From Rhizobium sp. AC27/96 (GTDB lineage Bacteria; Pseudomonadota; Alphaproteobacteria; Rhizobiales; Rhizobiaceae), in NCBI RefSeq assembly GCF_001692325.1, contig NZ_LXKN01000001.1, forward strand, positions 992,001-1,056,000: a DNA stretch of 64,000 bases, given 5' to 3'. A program made the translations under genes and the position numbers. This document shows positions 29,299-40,674 of the stretch, piece after piece; position 1 is the stretch's first letter, and every line of letters starts with the position of its first letter. Under the pieces are notes generated by a model. The model was not told where the DNA came from and ran no database searches. It worked only from the letters and a program-made list of their open reading frames with translations.

Positions 29299-30432
29299 TC
29301 ACTGCAGCGGCGGCCCGACATAGCGCGCTCGCGGCCGGATGAGGCGGCCGCTGGTCGCTTGTTCCATGGCATGAGCCAGCCAGCCTACCGTCCGCGCCAG
29401 CGCGAAGATGATCAAGGGCGCATCCTCAGGCAGGTGAAAGGCATGCGTCATCGCGGTCACCGCAAAATCAACATTGACGCGTTCGCCGACAAGCTGTTCG
29501 CCGACATCGCGAACCTCTGCGAACAGTGGAGGCAGCGTCAAGCAACGCAGCAATGCCTCGGCACGAATATCGACATCAGGATAGAGCTGGTGGCCGAAGG
29601 CAGGTAAAGGCCTTCCTTCCGCGAGATAGCTGCGGACCGCCTCCTCCGCGCCAATCGTGGCGGCGCGGGCAATCAAGGAACGCACGCTTTGCCACGCGCC
29701 GCCATGCAGCGGGCCGGTCAGCGTGGAAAGACCGGACAAGGCTGCGGCGGATAAGGTCGCGCCGGCGGAAGCCGTGATTCGTGCGGTGAATGTCGAGGCG
29801 TTCAGCTCGTGGTCCGCGAGCAGCACCAGACAGCGCCGTATCAGGTCACCGGCATCCGGGCGATCCCAGGCCACGGCGAGACGCTGATGCAGTGGTTTGT
29901 CGGCAGATCCTGGCGCCAGCGCATCGGCCACGGTTGCGAGCACGCTTTCCGCCTCACCCTGCAGCGCTGGAAGCGAGCGCCCCAGCGAGGGCAGATCGGT
30001 GGTCGTACGCTCGGCAAGCGCCGAAAATGCTGCATTCAAGGAAGGAAGCTTTCGCCGCATCTCCCCTTCCTCCAGTCGCAGCGGTCGTTTCATGTCCCAA
30101 AGCAATATCGCGACATCTTCGAGGCTCGCTCTCTCGGCAAGCTTGGCTGCATTCTGACCGCGATAGAAAAGCCCCCCGTTGAAAACCGTCGACAAGGCCG
30201 AAGGCAGCACCGGGTCTCCCCATTGAATCGCCTCGGCGGCCACCGCCTCCGTCTTGCGCCGGCCGGCATGGCGAGTTGCCAGCCGCTTCACGTCATCGGT
30301 GAAATAGAGGCTGCGCCGAGTATCCGCCGGATCGGGCTTGGCGCGAATGCGGCCACGGCTGACATTGGCGTACAGCGTCTGCGATTTCGTCCCCAGCAGG
30401 GTCAACGCCTGCTCCGCCGTCAGCCAGCTCAT
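29299..30432 (-). CDS. citrate synthase homologue with N-terminal helix-turn-helix
   Basis: A 377-aa two-part protein. Residues 1-55 form a MerR/excisionase-like HTH (WLTAEQALTLLGTKSQTLYANVSRGRI followed by RRSLYFTDDVKRL). Residues ~70-377 are a citrate synthase fold with active-site positions kept: His208 (DHELNAS), His243 (GPLHGGA), His281 (FGHQLYP) and Asp322 (NVDFA), plus the ARTVGWLAH block. Such proteins are usually annotated as citrate synthase family. The HTH suggests DNA binding or an alternative N-terminal domain, but neither DNA binding nor catalysis is shown. It is divergent from a second citrate synthase homologue with a palindrome-rich control region. Confidence 0.85.
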   Translation of the reverse strand: MSWLTAEQALTLLGTKSQTLYANVSRGRIRAKPDPADTRRSLYFTDDVKRLATRHAGRRKTEAVAAEAIQWGDPVLPSALSTVFNGGLFYRGQNAAKLAERASLEDVAILLWDMKRPLRLEEGEMRRKLPSLNAAFSALAERTTTDLPSLGRSLPALQGEAESVLATVADALAPGSADKPLHQRLAVAWDRPDAGDLIRRCLVLLADHELNASTFTARITASAGATLSAAALSGLSTLTGPLHGGAWQSVRSLIARAATIGAEEAVRSYLAEGRPLPAFGHQLYPDVDIRAEALLRCLTLPPLFAEVRDVGEQLVGERVNVDFAVTAMTHAFHLPEDAPLIIFALARTVGWLAHAMEQATSGRLIRPRARYVGPPLQ

Positions 30433-30442
30433 AAGTCCTCAT

Positions 30443-30473
30443 ATTGATCAATTGCATCAAGATTGACGTCAAT
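30443..30473. promoter_or_regulatory. paired palindromes between the two citrate synthase homologues
   Basis: ATTGATCAAT (30443-30452) and ATTGACGTCAAT (30462-30473) are perfect palindromes sharing the half-site ATTGA/TCAAT, with centres exactly 20 bp apart (two helical turns). A third weaker dyad, CCGAT-N3-ATCGG, is at 30484-30496. The region lies just upstream of both divergent start codons and is a good candidate operator, possibly for the HTH-bearing protein itself. Confidence 0.5.
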
Positions 30474-30516
30474 GAAAATAGACCCGATCTAATCGGATAG
30501 TCAAAGGAGAACCGTA

Positions 30517-31605
30517 ATGAAAAGTGGTCTTGAAGATGTCATTGCCGCAGAAACCAAGCTATCCGACGTCGATGGCGCCGCCGGTCGCCTGATCATACGC
30601 GGCGTGTCGCTCGATGATCTTGTGGCGACCAGCCGGTTCGAGGATGTGGCGGCGCTGCTGTTCGATGGCCTGTTCGACGAACATATCGATGCAGCCTCCA
30701 TCCGGAAGCAGCTTGGCGCAGCTCGTGTTTCGCTGTTTGCACACGTAGCGGCCGCCGATGCAGCGCTGCTCGCTCTGCCGCCGGTGGACGCGATGCGCGC
30801 TTTGCTGGCACGAATCACGGACGGCGAGGATTTCGCCAGTGCCATCAATCTGATGGCGGCGCCGGCCGTTTTCCTGCCGGCCGTGTTGCGGCTGCAGAAG
30901 GGTGACACGCCGATCAAACCGGATGCCTCATTATCCCAGTCGGCCGATATCCTGCGCATGCTGAGTGGTCGTGTACCGACAGCAGAGCAGACAGCGGGGC
31001 TCGACGCCTATCTCGTGACGATTTCCGATCATGGTTTGAATGCTTCGACATTCGCGTCACGCGTCATCGCTTCCACTCATGCCGGCCTGACCTCTTCCGT
31101 GCTGGCGGCGATCAGCGCCCTGAAGGGTCCGTTGCATGGTGGCGCACCCGGCCCCGTCCTCGATATGCTCGATGGCGTCGGCAAGCCGGAGAACGCGCGT
31201 GAATGGCTGTCGAATGCGCTCGATCATGGCGAGCGATTGATGGGGTTCGGCCATCGCATCTATCGTGTCCGCGACCCGCGTGCCGATGCGTTGAAAACCG
31301 CGCTGAAGCCGATTTTTGCCAGCGGCCAGGCGGATGCCGGCCGTATCGCGTTGGCGGAGGCGATTGAAGCTGCAGCACTCGCCCTGCTCAAGGAGCGCAA
31401 GCCTGATCGCCCACTCGACGTCAATGTTGAATACTACACGGCCCTGCTGCTCGACGCCCTCGGCTTTCCGCGAAACTCCTTCACCGGCGTCTTTGCGATC
31501 GGCCGTACGGTCGGCTGGATTGCCCATGCGCGTGAACAGACGCTCGACGGGCGCCTCATCCGTCCGCAGTCGCGCTATGTCGGTCCGCTGCCAAAGGCAG
31601 CATAA
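30517..31605 (+). CDS. citrate/methylcitrate synthase family protein
   Basis: A 362-aa protein of the citrate synthase family without extra domains. Active-site positions are His172 (DHGLNAS), His207 (GPLHGGA) and His246 (GFGHRIY). The usual catalytic Asp is Glu305 (NVEYYTALLLDALGF), a conservative change seen in some family branches. The arginine-containing GRTVGWIAHAREQ is kept. It could make citrate, 2-methylcitrate or another condensation product. It is not the main housekeeping gltA by context. It is divergent from the HTH-citrate synthase and convergent with a LysR gene. Confidence 0.88.
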   Translation: MKSGLEDVIAAETKLSDVDGAAGRLIIRGVSLDDLVATSRFEDVAALLFDGLFDEHIDAASIRKQLGAARVSLFAHVAAADAALLALPPVDAMRALLARITDGEDFASAINLMAAPAVFLPAVLRLQKGDTPIKPDASLSQSADILRMLSGRVPTAEQTAGLDAYLVTISDHGLNASTFASRVIASTHAGLTSSVLAAISALKGPLHGGAPGPVLDMLDGVGKPENAREWLSNALDHGERLMGFGHRIYRVRDPRADALKTALKPIFASGQADAGRIALAEAIEAAALALLKERKPDRPLDVNVEYYTALLLDALGFPRNSFTGVFAIGRTVGWIAHAREQTLDGRLIRPQSRYVGPLPKAA

Positions 31606-33229: not shown

Positions 33230-35089
33230 TCACACACGGCTGTGCCAGAGCCACACGGTCAGCGATCCGGCGCGGCCGCGCAAACTTGTGTCGATCGGGC
33301 CGTCGAGCCTGCCTTCGATGTAGGGAGCACTATCGCTACCGGCGGAAAGCAGGAGGTCGTCGCTGATGGCGATCTCCGCGCCGTTGCTGGCAGCCACTTC
33401 CATCAGGCGGCTTGCCACATTGACGGTGTCGCCCGTCGCGGTGATCTGCTGCCTCCCGCCATCGCCGAGCCTGGAGGCGACGATGGTGCCGAAATGCGCG
33501 CCGATCTTGAAGCCGATGCGGGAAGCCGTCTCTTCGGGTAGCGTTGCGAGCCAGCTTCTCATCCGACCGGCGAGATGAATGCAGCAGCGCGCCGCATTGG
33601 CCGGATCGGTTCGCTTTGGTTGCGGCAGGCCAAAGAGGATCATGGCGCCGTCACCCATGAAGCTGGTAATGGCACCGCCACTGGCCGTCACCTCCTCGTC
33701 GACCAGATGATAGAAGCCGTTCAGCAGCTCACGCACGGCCGTCGGGCCGATCGTCTCGCTGAGACCGGTAAAGCCATTGATGTCGATGAAGACCACGGCT
33801 GCTTCCTGGTGCACAGGCTCTGCAAGGAAGGCGGGGTCGCGGGCCAGATGTTCGGCCAGGCCCGGTGCCTGGATGCGCTGCAGCCGCTCGCTCTGCGCCG
33901 CGAGGCGCCCGGCCTGCCTGCGGCCGAGCCAGATCTGGGCCGCACCGAAGAGCAGTGCTGGAGGTACAGTCGCCGCGATCGGCAGGGCAGCGCTTAGCCA
34001 GAAGCCGTGTTTAAAAGCACTGATATTGATCCCCAGCCAGGCGAGGATGGCGCAAAGCGCCATGATCAAGCCGATGGTGTTGCGCCGCCAGGCAAGCAGG
34101 CCGACGATGATGAGGGGCATGCCCACAGCGAAATAGAGATCGATATAGCGGATGCCGTGGTCCCGGATGAGCCCGTCTCTTGCGATCAGATGTGTGATCG
34201 AGGTGGATATGACTTCGACACCAGGCAATACCGGATCGAAAGGCGTCGGAAAGACATCGCCGCCGCCGGTCACTGTCGCACCGATGACGACGATATGATC
34301 CCTGATTGCCGCCTCCGGCAGTTGACCGCTAAGCGCAGCACTGGCGCTGAGGGTGCGGATCGTGCCGCGCGGCCCATAGAACGAAAGCGGCATCAGATAG
34401 CCGGTGTCGGTATAGACGGAGTGGCCACCGATCTTGATGCGGTCCGAGATGACGACCGGCTGTTCGCCGGTGGCCGCCGAAACCACACGCATTGAAAACG
34501 ACGGCTCGATGCGTTCGCCGCTGCGAAACAGCATCGGCACGAATCGCGGCGTCCCCGTCTTGTCGGTCTGTACGTTGACGACACCGGTGCTTGCGGCACC
34601 CGCGAATCTCTCCTGTGGCTCCAGGAATTGCAGCGCGCTCGGTACGCGGGCGAGAGGCTCCTTGCTGTCATCGGCAACGCGCTGGCGGCTTTCGGGAAAA
34701 ATGCCGGCGGCGGCCAGCACGGCATTCGTCCGCTTCAGCGATTGCTCCAGCGCCGCATCGCCGGCCTCGTCACCGGGATCGATCAGGAGCATGTCGAGCG
34801 CGATAGCCTTTGGTCCCAGTGCCGCGATGGCGTCGACCACCTTGGCAAGCGTGGCGCGGGGAAGCGGATAATGTCCGGCCACACGCGACGTCTCATCGTC
34901 AATGGCAACGATGGTGACGATATCGGGAGGCTGGCGGCTGCCGCCGATCGTATCTCTCAGATTCGTCAGGGTCGCCTCGGCGCCGTCGACAAACGGGATA
35001 TCGCCATGCAGGTTCATAATGCCGAGGCCAAGGCCCCAGACAGCAGTCAGGACAAGCGCGATCAGCGTCTGCAGCGGCGGTCTGCGCAT
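33230..35089 (-). CDS. CHASE2-domain adenylate/guanylate cyclase
   Basis: A 619-aa membrane receptor cyclase. One N-terminal helix leads to a periplasmic CHASE2 sensor (about 35-320; VAIDDETSRVAGHYPLPRA, GATVTGGGDVFPTPFD), then three closely spaced helices (about 325-390) and a cytoplasmic class III cyclase domain (about 430-605). The latter has VVFIDINGFTGLSE with metal-binding Asp, and SFMGDGAMILFG with the second Asp. It probably makes cAMP (or cGMP) in response to an extracellular cue. It starts 12 bp after the FecR-domain gene, a pairing seen repeatedly in Proteobacteria. Confidence 0.93.
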   Translation of the reverse strand: MRRPPLQTLIALVLTAVWGLGLGIMNLHGDIPFVDGAEATLTNLRDTIGGSRQPPDIVTIVAIDDETSRVAGHYPLPRATLAKVVDAIAALGPKAIALDMLLIDPGDEAGDAALEQSLKRTNAVLAAAGIFPESRQRVADDSKEPLARVPSALQFLEPQERFAGAASTGVVNVQTDKTGTPRFVPMLFRSGERIEPSFSMRVVSAATGEQPVVISDRIKIGGHSVYTDTGYLMPLSFYGPRGTIRTLSASAALSGQLPEAAIRDHIVVIGATVTGGGDVFPTPFDPVLPGVEVISTSITHLIARDGLIRDHGIRYIDLYFAVGMPLIIVGLLAWRRNTIGLIMALCAILAWLGINISAFKHGFWLSAALPIAATVPPALLFGAAQIWLGRRQAGRLAAQSERLQRIQAPGLAEHLARDPAFLAEPVHQEAAVVFIDINGFTGLSETIGPTAVRELLNGFYHLVDEEVTASGGAITSFMGDGAMILFGLPQPKRTDPANAARCCIHLAGRMRSWLATLPEETASRIGFKIGAHFGTIVASRLGDGGRQQITATGDTVNVASRLMEVAASNGAEIAISDDLLLSAGSDSAPYIEGRLDGPIDTSLRGRAGSLTVWLWHSRV

Positions 35090-35101
35090 CGGCTCAGGAT
35101 C

Positions 35102-35638
35102 TCACTGGCCGAGACGGGTCATCAATGCGCTGATGCGCTGCTGTGCCCAGGGTATGACACGCAACGGCGAGCGGCCCTTGTCGGCATCGATGCCCTGTCC
35201 CTGGCCGAGTGTGACGCCCTGCCCCGTTGATACCTTGTTGACGGCGACACGGCCGCGCAAGACGAGCACGGATGTCTTGCCCGCCTTCACATCGACCGCC
35301 CACCGCGTGCCACGAACGGCGGCGATTGCCTGCGGCGTTACCACCTCGAACCCGCCTTTGACGCGACTGCTGTCGACATCGACCAAGGCTGCCTTGCCGC
35401 TGAGCACCAGCGCATCCACCTGCCCATCATGATTGCGGTCCGCAAGCCGGTAATGTGCGCCGCGCTCGATGGTAATGCTGAGCCCCGGCTGGCAATTCAA
35501 CGTCTGGCGTTCGGTGCTGACAGTCGGTTGAAGCGAGCAGTTCCCGGCGGATTCGGCAGAAGCCGTGCCGGCCCCGACGAGGCATAGAAGGCCCGTTGCC
35601 AGCGCCGCGCTGAGAAAATTACTCATTTGAATCATCAT
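35102..35638 (-). CDS. FecR-domain exported protein
   Basis: A 178-aa secreted or periplasmic protein. A signal peptide ends near ASA (residue ~28). The rest is a FecR-like beta-rich domain: LSITIERGAHYRLADRNHD, then VVTPQAIAAVRGTRWAVDV and KTSVLVLRGRVAVNKV. The segment TPxxxxxVRGT is the family hallmark. A GAGGG site supports ATG 35638 rather than upstream codons. It is coupled to the CHASE2 cyclase gene and may act as a partner in sensing envelope signals. Unlike true FecR, there is no ECF sigma/TonB receptor context. Confidence 0.88.
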   Translation of the reverse strand: MMIQMSNFLSAALATGLLCLVGAGTASAESAGNCSLQPTVSTERQTLNCQPGLSITIERGAHYRLADRNHDGQVDALVLSGKAALVDVDSSRVKGGFEVVTPQAIAAVRGTRWAVDVKAGKTSVLVLRGRVAVNKVSTGQGVTLGQGQGIDADKGRSPLRVIPWAQQRISALMTRLGQ

Positions 35639-35720
35639 TTTGGCCCTCATCACCTATAACTGGGGCCGAAGACGACGATGTCCAGTCACGGCATTCCAGA
35701 TACTTGGTGGTGATGATGCG

Positions 35721-36770
35721 TCAGGGATGATTGATCTGCAAGTTGTCGTAGCCTCGCGCCTTGTAAAGCACCGTCGAAATCAACCAGCTCAACAGGAAAA
35801 TACCGACGACAGCGAAGCCGAAATTGGCGAGATTGTCGTTGAGTTCGCCGATGAAGCGCCAGAATCCGCCTTCGAGACCGAGCTTGTCCGAAATAAGCCC
35901 GAGCGCCTCTATGCCGCCGATGAAGATGGCGACGACGACGGAAGCGGCGGTGATTGTCAGATTGTACCAGAGCTTGCGGATCGGCTTGACGAAGGCCCAG
36001 CCATAGGCGCCGGTCATCAGCGTGCTGTCGAGCGTATCCATCAGCGACATGCCGGCGGTGAAGAGCGCCGGGAAAATCAGGATCGTCCAGAAGGACATGC
36101 CCTGCGCGGCCTGCGCGGCGGAAATGCCGAGAAGCCCGATCTCGGTTGCGGTGTCGAAACCGAGACCAAAGAGGAAGCCGATCGGATACATGTGCCATGA
36201 GCGGGTCACGACCTTGAACATCGGCCGGAAGATGCGCGCCAGGAAGCCCCCGCCGGCAAGCAGCGTATCCAGATCTTCTTCCGCGATCCTCTCGCTTCTC
36301 CGCGCCCGCCTGAACGCCGACCAGACGCCCTTGAGCACGAAGAGATTGGCAATACCGATCAGGAGCAGGAAGGCCGCCGACACGGTGGTGCCGATGACAC
36401 CGCCGACATCGTGAAACGAATCGAGTTGGCTCTGCATCGCGGCGGCCGTCGCGGCAATCAGGATCGAGGCGATGACGACGATCGAGGAGTGACCGAGTGA
36501 GAAGAAGAAGCCGACGGCATAGGGCTGCTTCTTTTCCTGGATGAGCTTGCGCACGACATTGTCGATGGCGGCGATATGGTCGGCGTCGAAGGCGTGACGA
36601 AGGCCGAACATATAGGCAAGAAATGCAATGCCGAGCAGCGATGGCCTGTCCGAGAATGCGACCCAGGCCCAGATCCAGGCAACAATGTTGAAAATAATCA
36701 AAAGTGCAAAAGTGAAGGCGATCTTGGCTTTCGGCCGCTCGACGCCATCGTCAAATGGATTGAGGATCAT
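35721..36770 (-). CDS. NiCoT-family nickel/cobalt permease
   Basis: A 349-aa membrane protein with about eight helices. The NiCoT signature RHAFDADHIAAIDN (the H-x4-DH metal-selectivity motif in helix II) is intact, followed by FFSLGHSSIVV and later the LGFDTATEIGLLG block. Family members (HoxN, NixA, NhlF) import Ni2+ and/or Co2+ at high affinity for urease, hydrogenase or cobalamin synthesis. The start ATG 36770 gives the usual N-terminus; the longer frame is rejected. No urease or hydrogenase gene is nearby. I saw no cobalamin riboswitch upstream. Confidence 0.92.
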   Translation of the reverse strand: MILNPFDDGVERPKAKIAFTFALLIIFNIVAWIWAWVAFSDRPSLLGIAFLAYMFGLRHAFDADHIAAIDNVVRKLIQEKKQPYAVGFFFSLGHSSIVVIASILIAATAAAMQSQLDSFHDVGGVIGTTVSAAFLLLIGIANLFVLKGVWSAFRRARRSERIAEEDLDTLLAGGGFLARIFRPMFKVVTRSWHMYPIGFLFGLGFDTATEIGLLGISAAQAAQGMSFWTILIFPALFTAGMSLMDTLDSTLMTGAYGWAFVKPIRKLWYNLTITAASVVVAIFIGGIEALGLISDKLGLEGGFWRFIGELNDNLANFGFAVVGIFLLSWLISTVLYKARGYDNLQINHP

Positions 36771-36875
36771 ACTTTTGTTCCCGTTATGCTTACTCGCACA
36801 GTGCCACGGAAACCCAAGGGGCGCGACAGTCAAATGACGTAGATGCCGAAGTTTTTCGCAGTGTTGCAAATTTGG

Positions 36876-36901
36876 GCAAGCCCGACATGAGCCGGGCTTG
36901 C
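36876..36901 (-). terminator. terminator-like hairpin after the rhodanese gene
   Basis: GCAAGCCCG (36876-36884) pairs perfectly with CGGGCTTGC (36893-36901). It begins 13 bp after the rhodanese stop on the minus strand, but the following T-tract is weak (CCCAAATTTGC). Confidence 0.5.
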
Positions 36902-36913
36902 GTCATTATTCAA

Positions 36914-37306
36914 TCATCCTCTTTCGAAGGGATGGCCCTCGTCTGCCCAGCCGGTAATGCCGCCGATCATCACCTTCACGCGCTTGCCGAGCGTGCCGAG
37001 CCGCAAGGCGGCCCTGTCGGTGCCGTTGCAATGCGGACCGGCGCAATAGACCACGAACAGTGTATCCTCAGGCCATTCCGCCATCTTTCGCGCCGTCATC
37101 TTGCCATGCGGCAGATTGATCGCGCCGGGAATATGCTGCTCCTGAAACAGGGCTGGACCGCGAACATCGATGAGGACGAAATCCGCGTTGCCTGAGGTCA
37201 TGGCCTGCTGCACATCGGAACAATCTGTCTCGAAGGCGAGCCTGCGGGCATAATGTTCGGCAACGAGCTGCGGATCTGCGGCGGGGATTTCACTGACTAG
37301 GGACAT
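36914..37306 (-). CDS. rhodanese-like domain protein
   Basis: A 130-aa single rhodanese domain with a short N-terminal extension. VLIDVRGPALFQEQHIPGAINLPHG is the characteristic front half (given as one contiguous block in two parts: VLIDVRGPALF and QEQHIPGAINLP). The active-site loop is YCAGPHCNGTDRAA, with the catalytic Cys in place. Sulfur transfer or a regulatory persulfide role is likely. The start ATG 37306 has an AAGGAG site. It is divergent from ftrA; FtrA-type regulators are frequently next to a rhodanese gene. Confidence 0.9.
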   Translation of the reverse strand: MSLVSEIPAADPQLVAEHYARRLAFETDCSDVQQAMTSGNADFVLIDVRGPALFQEQHIPGAINLPHGKMTARKMAEWPEDTLFVVYCAGPHCNGTDRAALRLGTLGKRVKVMIGGITGWADEGHPFERG

Positions 37307-37392
37307 GTAACGCTCCTTCATTGGTTCGCTGCATTCATGCCCGAGCGGTTCGAGAGTTGAAATTGGCCGAAATGCCATATAGCGTCAAAATC

Positions 37393-40674
<3,282 letters not shown>

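Follow-up and report, generated by a model that had tools for sequence, protein, structure and literature searches.

Two citrate synthase (CS) homologs lie back to back in a stretch of 64,000 nucleotides from Rhizobium sp. AC27/96 (hereafter the window; contig NZ_LXKN01000001.1, positions 992,001 to 1,056,000, from a genome close to R. tropici as judged by its nearest loci in our Rhizobium set), and one of them carries a helix-turn-helix (HTH) at its N-terminus. Is such a protein an enzyme, a regulator, or both? The HTH-bearing CS homolog (HTH-CS; the window copy is referred to as P0001) is encoded at 29299-30432 on the minus strand and comprises 377 amino acids, while the divergent CS (P0002; 30517-31605, plus strand, 362 amino acids), of the NF009005/PRK12350 kind and preceded by an RBS-like AAGGAG read off the sequence at 30504-30509 on the same strand, is presumed to be its local target; the two proteins are 39% identical over 197 residues. 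Re-reading of both open reading frames bore out the divergent order and the 84-bp gap given in a preliminary description of the locus, which had proposed an enzyme, a metabolite-sensing transcription factor or both, acting as an autoregulated switch through a double palindrome between the genes. The comparisons detailed below strongly support the transcription factor and the autoregulation, and revise the binding site, which had been misread. Specifically, P0001 is most likely a one-component transcription factor in which a MerR/Xis-type winged HTH (wHTH) is joined to an exapted CS fold serving as sensor, and which would control both its own gene and that of the divergent CS. Throughout, L and G followed by a number label the loci and genomes, respectively, of the comparison sets.

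The presence of a genuine HTH in the N-terminal segment of P0001 (residues 1-58; 30259-30432, minus strand) is supported by two lines of evidence. Firstly, the Pfam HTH_17 model matches P0001 at 20.7 bits, under the cut-off of 27, and three homologs at 30.7, 33.4, and 38.5 bits, such that P0001 is the one member of the four scanned that falls below the threshold. Secondly, the segment adopts a wHTH topology when modeled alone with AlphaFold (pLDDT 90.8), and the structures that align best with it are those of phage Xis, CarH, CvkR, CadR, and SoxR, with Z scores from 7.8 to 7.1 over alignments of 53-61 residues (rmsd 1.8-3.2); all of these scores lie in the range below 8 in which, as the tool itself warns, a match can reflect merely a common arrangement. 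A Foldseek search with the same model returned no match at E <= 0.001, with MarR and MerR rows mixed. In a model of full-length P0001 built with 29 Rhizobium sequences (pLDDT 82.4), residues 6-56 form a helix-helix-strand-strand-helix unit that is followed by a low-confidence linker (57-75) and then by the CS domain. In MerR-type proteins a dimerizing coiled coil follows the wHTH; at the corresponding place the models give a helix (45-58) running into this linker. Sequence conservation within the segment is pronounced, with a consensus of LGVxxxTLYAYVSRGxIR in 44 aligned members, among which Y21, V24, S25, and R26 are invariant; the window version of the signature, TLYANVSRG, covers residues 19-27.

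If P0001 binds DNA, where would it do so? The two palindromes of the preliminary description, ATTGATCAAT at 30443-30452 and ATTGACGTCAAT at 30462-30473, are exact, with centers at 30447.5 and 30467.5 and therefore 20 bp apart, and each has a single exact copy within the window. When one mismatch is allowed, however, their counts rise to 3 and 2 as compared to shuffle means of 2.4 and 1.9, and so the single palindromes constitute weak evidence. Moreover, the pair at 20-bp spacing is found in 48/80 Rhizobium loci and in 5 of 95 others, meaning that the spacing is not generally conserved, and the double palindrome is ruled out as the conserved unit by a 13-base core, TCAATnTTGAn9TCAA, that is exact far more widely: upstream of HTH-CS in all 80 Rhizobium loci and in 80 of the 95 others (84/95 with up to two mismatches). 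The conserved element is an asymmetric operator of 24 bp with three half-sites, written ATTGAT-N7-ATCAAGATTGA in the window (30443-30466), which the double palindrome, present as a variant of local distribution, overlaps: the first palindrome spans the outer half-site, TTGA at 30444-30447, and the second the inner TTGA at 30463-30466, with TCAA at 30457-30460 between them.

Several features distinguish this operator from a chance similarity. All 84 cores within two mismatches share one orientation, whereas 1900 shuffled upstream regions contained no core within one mismatch and five at two mismatches. Information content over 90 loci drops outside about 24 bp. The distance from the end of the core to the HTH-CS start codon, as chosen by script, has a median of 10 nt, and the window operator likewise ends 10 bp from the start codon. 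The core spans α-, β-, and γ-proteobacteria irrespective of whether the neighboring gene is a CS, a prpB-prpC-acnD operon, a CoA-transferase, or a hydroxyacid dehydrogenase. The 95-locus set on which these counts rest omits the 80 Rhizobium loci but retains three loci of the window's genus, includes close relatives that are not independent, and also excludes the re-fetched L207-L212, L158-L186 (mostly repeats), and L191, L204, L205, and L218, which did not pass the filter of the script. Among these omitted loci, an exact site is present in L191 and L218 but in neither L204 nor L205, while L158, L170, L173, L174, and L185 contribute four exact sites and one with a single mismatch. In L147, L156, and L203, the same half-sites were recognized by eye at other spacings.

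The link between operator and HTH-CS also holds at the level of whole genomes. Of 297 genomes of the order, 49 contain the exact 23-bp pattern TCAATMTTGATN7ATCAA, namely 46 of the 64 with an HTH-CS and 3 of the 233 without (Fisher p 2e-35, relatedness not corrected), and a reversed-pattern control was found in none of the 297. The 64 genomes were counted by hand among the matches listed, with G087 and G271 resting on partial or split matches and G183 on a weak match. As for the three pattern-bearing genomes without HTH-CS, inspection by eye placed the sites of G002 and G192 inside coding sequence and that of G269 upstream of an Rrf2-like gene. The conservation of the operator beside the gene of the protein itself, across loci and genomes, agrees with the proposal that HTH-CS is autoregulated, and a divergent or cluster-linked target that shares a common conserved operator is the arrangement seen in autoregulated, local one-component regulators.

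A site so close to an HTH-CS start, and overlapping a promoter-like -35, could in principle be bound by some other regulator or be a mere promoter element of HTH-CS genes. This explanation is very improbable, as the site tracks HTH-CS across classes and genomes and, in three loci, is found at promoters of other genes, at a distance from HTH-CS. The Caballeronia locus L151 has an SDR-MFS-VOC-HTH-CS row that ends with HTH-CS, and two operators, one exact (1066) and one with a single mismatch (1247), lie 2.7-2.9 kb from that gene, between D-glycerate dehydrogenase and SDR genes, one directed at each. L191, from a different genome, has an exact site at 1996 and a one-mismatch site at 2166, both 2.7-2.9 kb upstream of HTH-CS. 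In L258, an MmgE/PrpD gene has an exact operator (4903) upstream of it, some 10 kb distant from HTH-CS. The sites of L151 and L258 are oriented toward the nearby genes as in the standard arrangement. The operator is thus separable from the HTH-CS leader. On its other side, the L258 operator is bordered by a gene row that encodes, among others, a solute-binding protein and a luciferase-like monooxygenase.

The same explanation would be weakened further if protein and site varied together. In L157, L204, and L205, the HTH signature reads SRKN or GRKN, and TCGAC is found upstream in place of the usual half-sites. The TCGAC half-sites of L157 (SRKN) hint at co-variation, yet L190 (SRKK) keeps a site of the usual TTGAT type, and a change of DNA code in the SRK/GRK members is therefore only a hint.

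How is the operator placed relative to the promoter of the divergent gene? When 60 offsets downstream of the core were scored against TATAAT across the 90 loci, the highest mean match was obtained at offset 19 (2.22/6; the next best being 2.17 at offset 16), an offset that corresponds to a 17-bp spacer from a -35 composed of the inner TTGA and the following two bases. At this spacing, the second-position A and sixth-position T of the -10 occur together in 38/90 loci, a combination seen in no more than 16 loci at any of the 59 remaining offsets. For the window, this profile would place the operator over the putative -35 of the CS promoter, TTGACG at 30463-30468 on the plus strand, which is also covered by the second palindrome, with the -10 expected at 30486-30491 (GATCTA, plus strand). 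MerR operators fill promoter spacers of 19-20 bp. A spacer of this type was considered for HTH-CS and is not supported, as the -10-like signal peaks at the 17-bp spacing with the -35 inside the operator.

HTH-CS genes occur well beyond Rhizobium, and their neighbors are informative as to function. At the order level, 56 of 63 loci outside the window genome have an adjacent CS, all 56 divergent; in the Rhizobium set this is true of 78/80 loci, again all divergent, with the other two at contig ends. At the phylum level, 54 full-length places were found in 53 of 398 genomes (E <= 3.2e-80), and plasmid records add HTH-CS in Burkholderiales, Ewingella, Roseomonas, Niveispirillum, and the actinomycete Embleya. 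Where annotation is present, HTH-CS proteins are labeled citrate synthase or citrate synthase family protein. Neighboring genes were called by a simple script, such that some boundaries are rough, and family scans covered a chosen part of the loci.

The frequency of CS pairing in the order could be read to mean that the HTH-like segment binds no DNA and serves instead as the interface of a heteromeric enzyme formed with the divergent CS, the very circumstance that the preliminary description had named as fatal to a regulatory role. This reading was rejected, with next to no probability remaining to it, because of HTH-CS genes that lack a CS neighbor, including 7/63 order-level loci, 7 of 10 plasmid loci (the other three having a CS partner), and several loci at the phylum level. 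Additionally, the HTH signature and the DNA site are the most tightly conserved parts.

Where no CS partner is present, HTH-CS is often placed like a LysR-type regulator beside varied genes of carboxylate metabolism. One of these settings is the 2-methylcitrate operon. Divergent from HTH-CS in L194-L197 is a gene of the PEP_mutase/ICL kind, which in L194 passes methylisocitrate lyase (prpB) cut-offs; the CS of each of these loci, the four PrpC of this study, scores 717-731 bits against the 2-methylcitrate synthase equivalog NF009006, for which the cut-off is 550; the third gene encodes AcnD in L195, likewise above its NCBIfam cut-off, and an aconitase in L197; and a PrpF gene is nearby in L199. 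Adjoining prpB-prpC(-acnD) genes divergently, HTH-CS occupies the place expected of a 2-methylcitrate operon regulator. Other settings include a divergent family III CoA-transferase (L187, L192, L193, L198, L207, and L211), an annotated CoA-transferase in Ewingella, a 2-hydroxyacid dehydrogenase with an FAA hydrolase and a TctC receptor (L188), GudP and a 2-hydroxyacid dehydrogenase in Paraburkholderia, a 2-hydroxyacid dehydrogenase operon in Comamonadaceae, DUF2332 (L209 and L210), an FMN-dependent dehydrogenase (L208), and a nearby CitMHS transporter (L204). Cation-efflux genes adjoin HTH-CS in L189, L201, and L206; they were not accepted as targets because no operator was found there.

The HTH-CS proteins form a single clade. 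In a tree of 74 CS domains, obtained by a quick search, rooted on the window genome's own GltA and containing two long branches, the HTH-CS sequences fall on one side of one branch (48 rows, SH-aLRT 100), apart from the partner CS (21 rows, SH-aLRT 83) and PrpC (4 rows, SH-aLRT 100), and the prp-linked HTH-CS cluster together. Considered as a whole, these findings make it likely that HTH-CS proteins constitute a widespread and hitherto undescribed class of one-component factors that arose by one ancient HTH-CS fusion, employ a complete CS fold as sensor, and mostly share one operator code directed at varied targets in carboxylate metabolism. The same reading, at the same likelihood for its parts jointly, has the class spread over α-, β-, and γ-proteobacteria and at least one actinomycete, with the 2-methylcitrate operon among its targets.

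What, then, has become of the enzyme? The CS-like domain of P0001 (residues 80-377; 29302-30195, minus strand) matches PF00285 at 181 bits (cut-off 27), and citrate synthases are its best matches in the PDB, with M. tuberculosis CitA at the top (Z 30.9, 298 residues, rmsd 2.8). Nonetheless, P0001 falls under every NCBIfam CS cut-off (best 138 bits versus cut-offs of 332 and 421), and the HTH-CS of L194 and L156 gave no NCBIfam match at E 1e-50; P0002 passes NF009005 with 474.5 bits (cut-off 332). An alignment of 188 sequences was used to follow individual residues, and consists of 120 HTH-CS and 64 partner CS (reduced from 181 and 138, with near relatives remaining) as well as the four PrpC; the numbering is that of pig CS, and the assignment of residues to CoA or oxaloacetate binding is one that we take to hold for these proteins. 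P0001 retains the oxaloacetate and catalytic residues H208, H243, H281, R290, D322, R347, and R366. The earlier statement that all active-site positions are kept is accordingly correct for these residues, and fails for one basic residue before the catalytic Asp.

In the family at large, equivalents of the pig arginines R329, R401, and R421 are present in 120, 119, and 120 of 120 HTH-CS, and those of H238, H274, H320, and D375 in 112, 112, 109, and 111. At least one of the latter four is missing in 11 of the 120, in a count that tolerated N at H320 and E at D375, and all eleven retain the three arginines. At the D375 position, where CS enzymes usually have the catalytic Asp, 63/64 partner CS have Glu, a feature shared with the B. 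subtilis and M. tuberculosis sequences; P0002 has Glu there too. The small domain is shortened in HTH-CS: the interval from R329 to D375 has a median length of 31 residues, as compared to 48 in partner CS and 41 in PrpC; in P0001, the shortened stretch lies between R290 and D322. Finally, basic residues (K/R) assigned to the CoA side are missing at several positions. At FGH+1, +4, and +6, where nearly all partner CS are basic (at FGH+4, all 64), they are found in 18, 7, and 7 of 120 HTH-CS, yet each of these positions is non-basic in all four PrpC. The residue before NxD is basic in 2/120 HTH-CS as opposed to 63/64 CS and 4/4 PrpC, in a gapped stretch of the alignment. A loss of CoA binding in HTH-CS was considered and, on recount, weakened: because PrpC also lacks the basic residues at FGH+1, +4, and +6, their absence proves no such loss. 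Separately, in L201, L202, L206, L213, and L214, all of one genus, the HTH signature is intact, several catalytic residues are lost, and no recognizable operator was seen.

These residue patterns bear on whether HTH-CS is a trigger enzyme. PutA and BirA are proteins of this kind, serving both as enzyme and as regulator, and HTH-CS might in the same manner be a working citrate or 2-methylcitrate synthase whose flux of substrate and product steers DNA binding. The retention of the four catalytic and substrate-site residues in most members, P0001 among them, is what such a protein would display, and the sharing of three basic-residue losses with PrpC, an enzyme by annotation, lowers the odds of a pure regulator and raises those of a trigger enzyme. 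Against this stand the near-complete loss of the basic residue before NxD, the shorter small domain, and the eleven members without at least one catalytic or substrate-site residue, two of which (L154 and L157) have an operator within two mismatches. Dual function of this sort is accordingly unlikely, though it commands far more probability than the other alternatives considered here.

For the preferred reading of HTH-CS as a transcription factor, the comparisons that count are those establishing the HTH, the operator, the association of the operator with HTH-CS genes and with varied promoters, the single clade, and the residue pattern; from them we infer DNA binding, the nature of the ligand, repression as opposed to activation, and weak or absent catalysis. 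The wHTH of HTH-CS would bind the 24-bp operator, and control of both its own gene and the CS gene is proposed because that operator lies next to its own start codon and over the putative CS -35. A dimeric CS body would bear two wHTHs gripping half-sites. The half-sites form direct TTGA repeats 19 bp apart with the inverted TCAA between, and the existence of three half-sites suggests more than one dimer. CS moves from an open to a closed form on ligand binding, and the same movement could reposition the HTH pair of a dimer on its half-sites. The CS domain is probably a sensor pocket for a di- or tricarboxylate such as oxaloacetate, citrate, 2-methylcitrate, or a relative, a prediction made because the oxaloacetate/citrate pocket is kept while the small domain is short and one basic position is lost; the synthase reaction itself may be weak or absent. 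Because the operator adjoins the HTH-CS start and also covers the target's putative -35, the simplest model has both promoters repressed in one state, and autorepression with release upon di- or tricarboxylate binding is favored. Alternative steps would be activation, or a residual enzyme activity.

A number of observations weigh against this interpretation. In the window, the expected -10 is a poor match. Beyond the local gene pair, nothing in the window genome is supported as a target: there is one exact operator (window 30444-30466) and there are eight sites with two mismatches, six inside likely coding frames and two (L221 and L223) outside, and a genome-wide regulon was rejected on these counts. 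No recognizable site was found, within the locus sequences covered, in L189, L201, L202, L206, L213, and L214 despite a usual HTH signature, nor in L204 and L205, where the signature is changed. The catalytic residues are present in most members, and, of the basic positions considered, that before NxD is the only one to separate HTH-CS from PrpC. In addition, an exact operator in L259 (5032) lies by a COX1-type cytochrome oxidase operon and is unexplained, with HTH-CS on another contig.

Elsewhere in the window, a FecR-domain gene is followed directly downstream, on the same strand, by a gene for a CHASE2-adenylate/guanylate cyclase (33230-35653; Pfam), and adjoining genes at 35721-38409 encode a NicO nickel/cobalt transporter, a rhodanese-domain protein, and a DJ-1/AraC-type regulator.

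Among the titles and abstract beginnings listed in searches of the open-licence literature, none describes a citrate synthase with an HTH as a regulator. Two studies of R. leguminosarum 3841 probably deal with a pair of this kind. Three candidate CS genes have been named in this strain, of which two, RL2508 and RL2509, are adjacent (PMC1557990), and by this adjacency and their genome position they are probably the HTH-CS/CS pair of L082. The two are listed as plain citrate synthases. In transposon sequencing, both were marked GN/NE, read here as growth-neutral/non-essential, and RL2234 was marked VGI/GD in one condition, read as growth-affected (PMC5118466); the marks of RL2508 and RL2509 would fit a non-essential, inducible system. 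Two further papers name a citrate synthase-like protein, sco5831 (PMC7324645), and a citrate synthase family protein of Collimonas (PMC12542777), both of which are at most candidate HTH-CS.

Should the proposed role prove correct, proteins annotated as citrate synthase would become predicted regulators whose DNA site is known and whose targets could be read from genomes. They would clearly exemplify the conversion of an enzyme into a sensor, and could be candidates for biosensors of citrate-like acids. Metabolic reconstructions that count HTH-CS as an enzyme of the TCA cycle, as in the R. leguminosarum papers (PMC1557990, PMC5118466), would stand to be corrected. At the 2-methylcitrate operon, moreover, what was once a synthase would detect the compound made by the very synthase that it controls.

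HTH-CS can be compared with several known systems. In overall design, it is reminiscent of the MocR/GabR regulators (PMC6917764, PMC4944035, PMC5320631), which likewise join a wHTH of about 60 residues, a linker, and a whole enzyme fold, and act on local metabolic targets. The likeness is one of design only, for MocR proteins are composed of a GntR-type wHTH and a PLP aminotransferase fold, and HTH-CS of a MerR/Xis-type wHTH and a CS fold. With the MerR/Xis superfamily (HTH_17; CarH, SoxR, CadR, Xis, BldC), HTH-CS shares the wHTH topology and its best structural matches. The sensors of that superfamily respond to metals, drugs, or cobalamin, whereas that of HTH-CS is CS-like and its operator lies over a putative -35 with an apparent 17-bp spacing. 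The type II citrate and 2-methylcitrate synthases, such as M. tuberculosis CitA, PrpC, and B. subtilis CitA, provide the fold (Z about 30) and the oxaloacetate-side residues, but HTH-CS departs from them in its N-terminal HTH, separate clade, shorter small domain, and lost basic position. Lastly, prp operons have dedicated regulators in PrpR and in GntR-type proteins. Like these, HTH-CS is found divergent from prpB-prpC (L194) and from prpB-prpC-acnD/aconitase (L195 and L197); it is unrelated to them, and its predicted sensor is instead a relative of one of the enzymes that the operon encodes.

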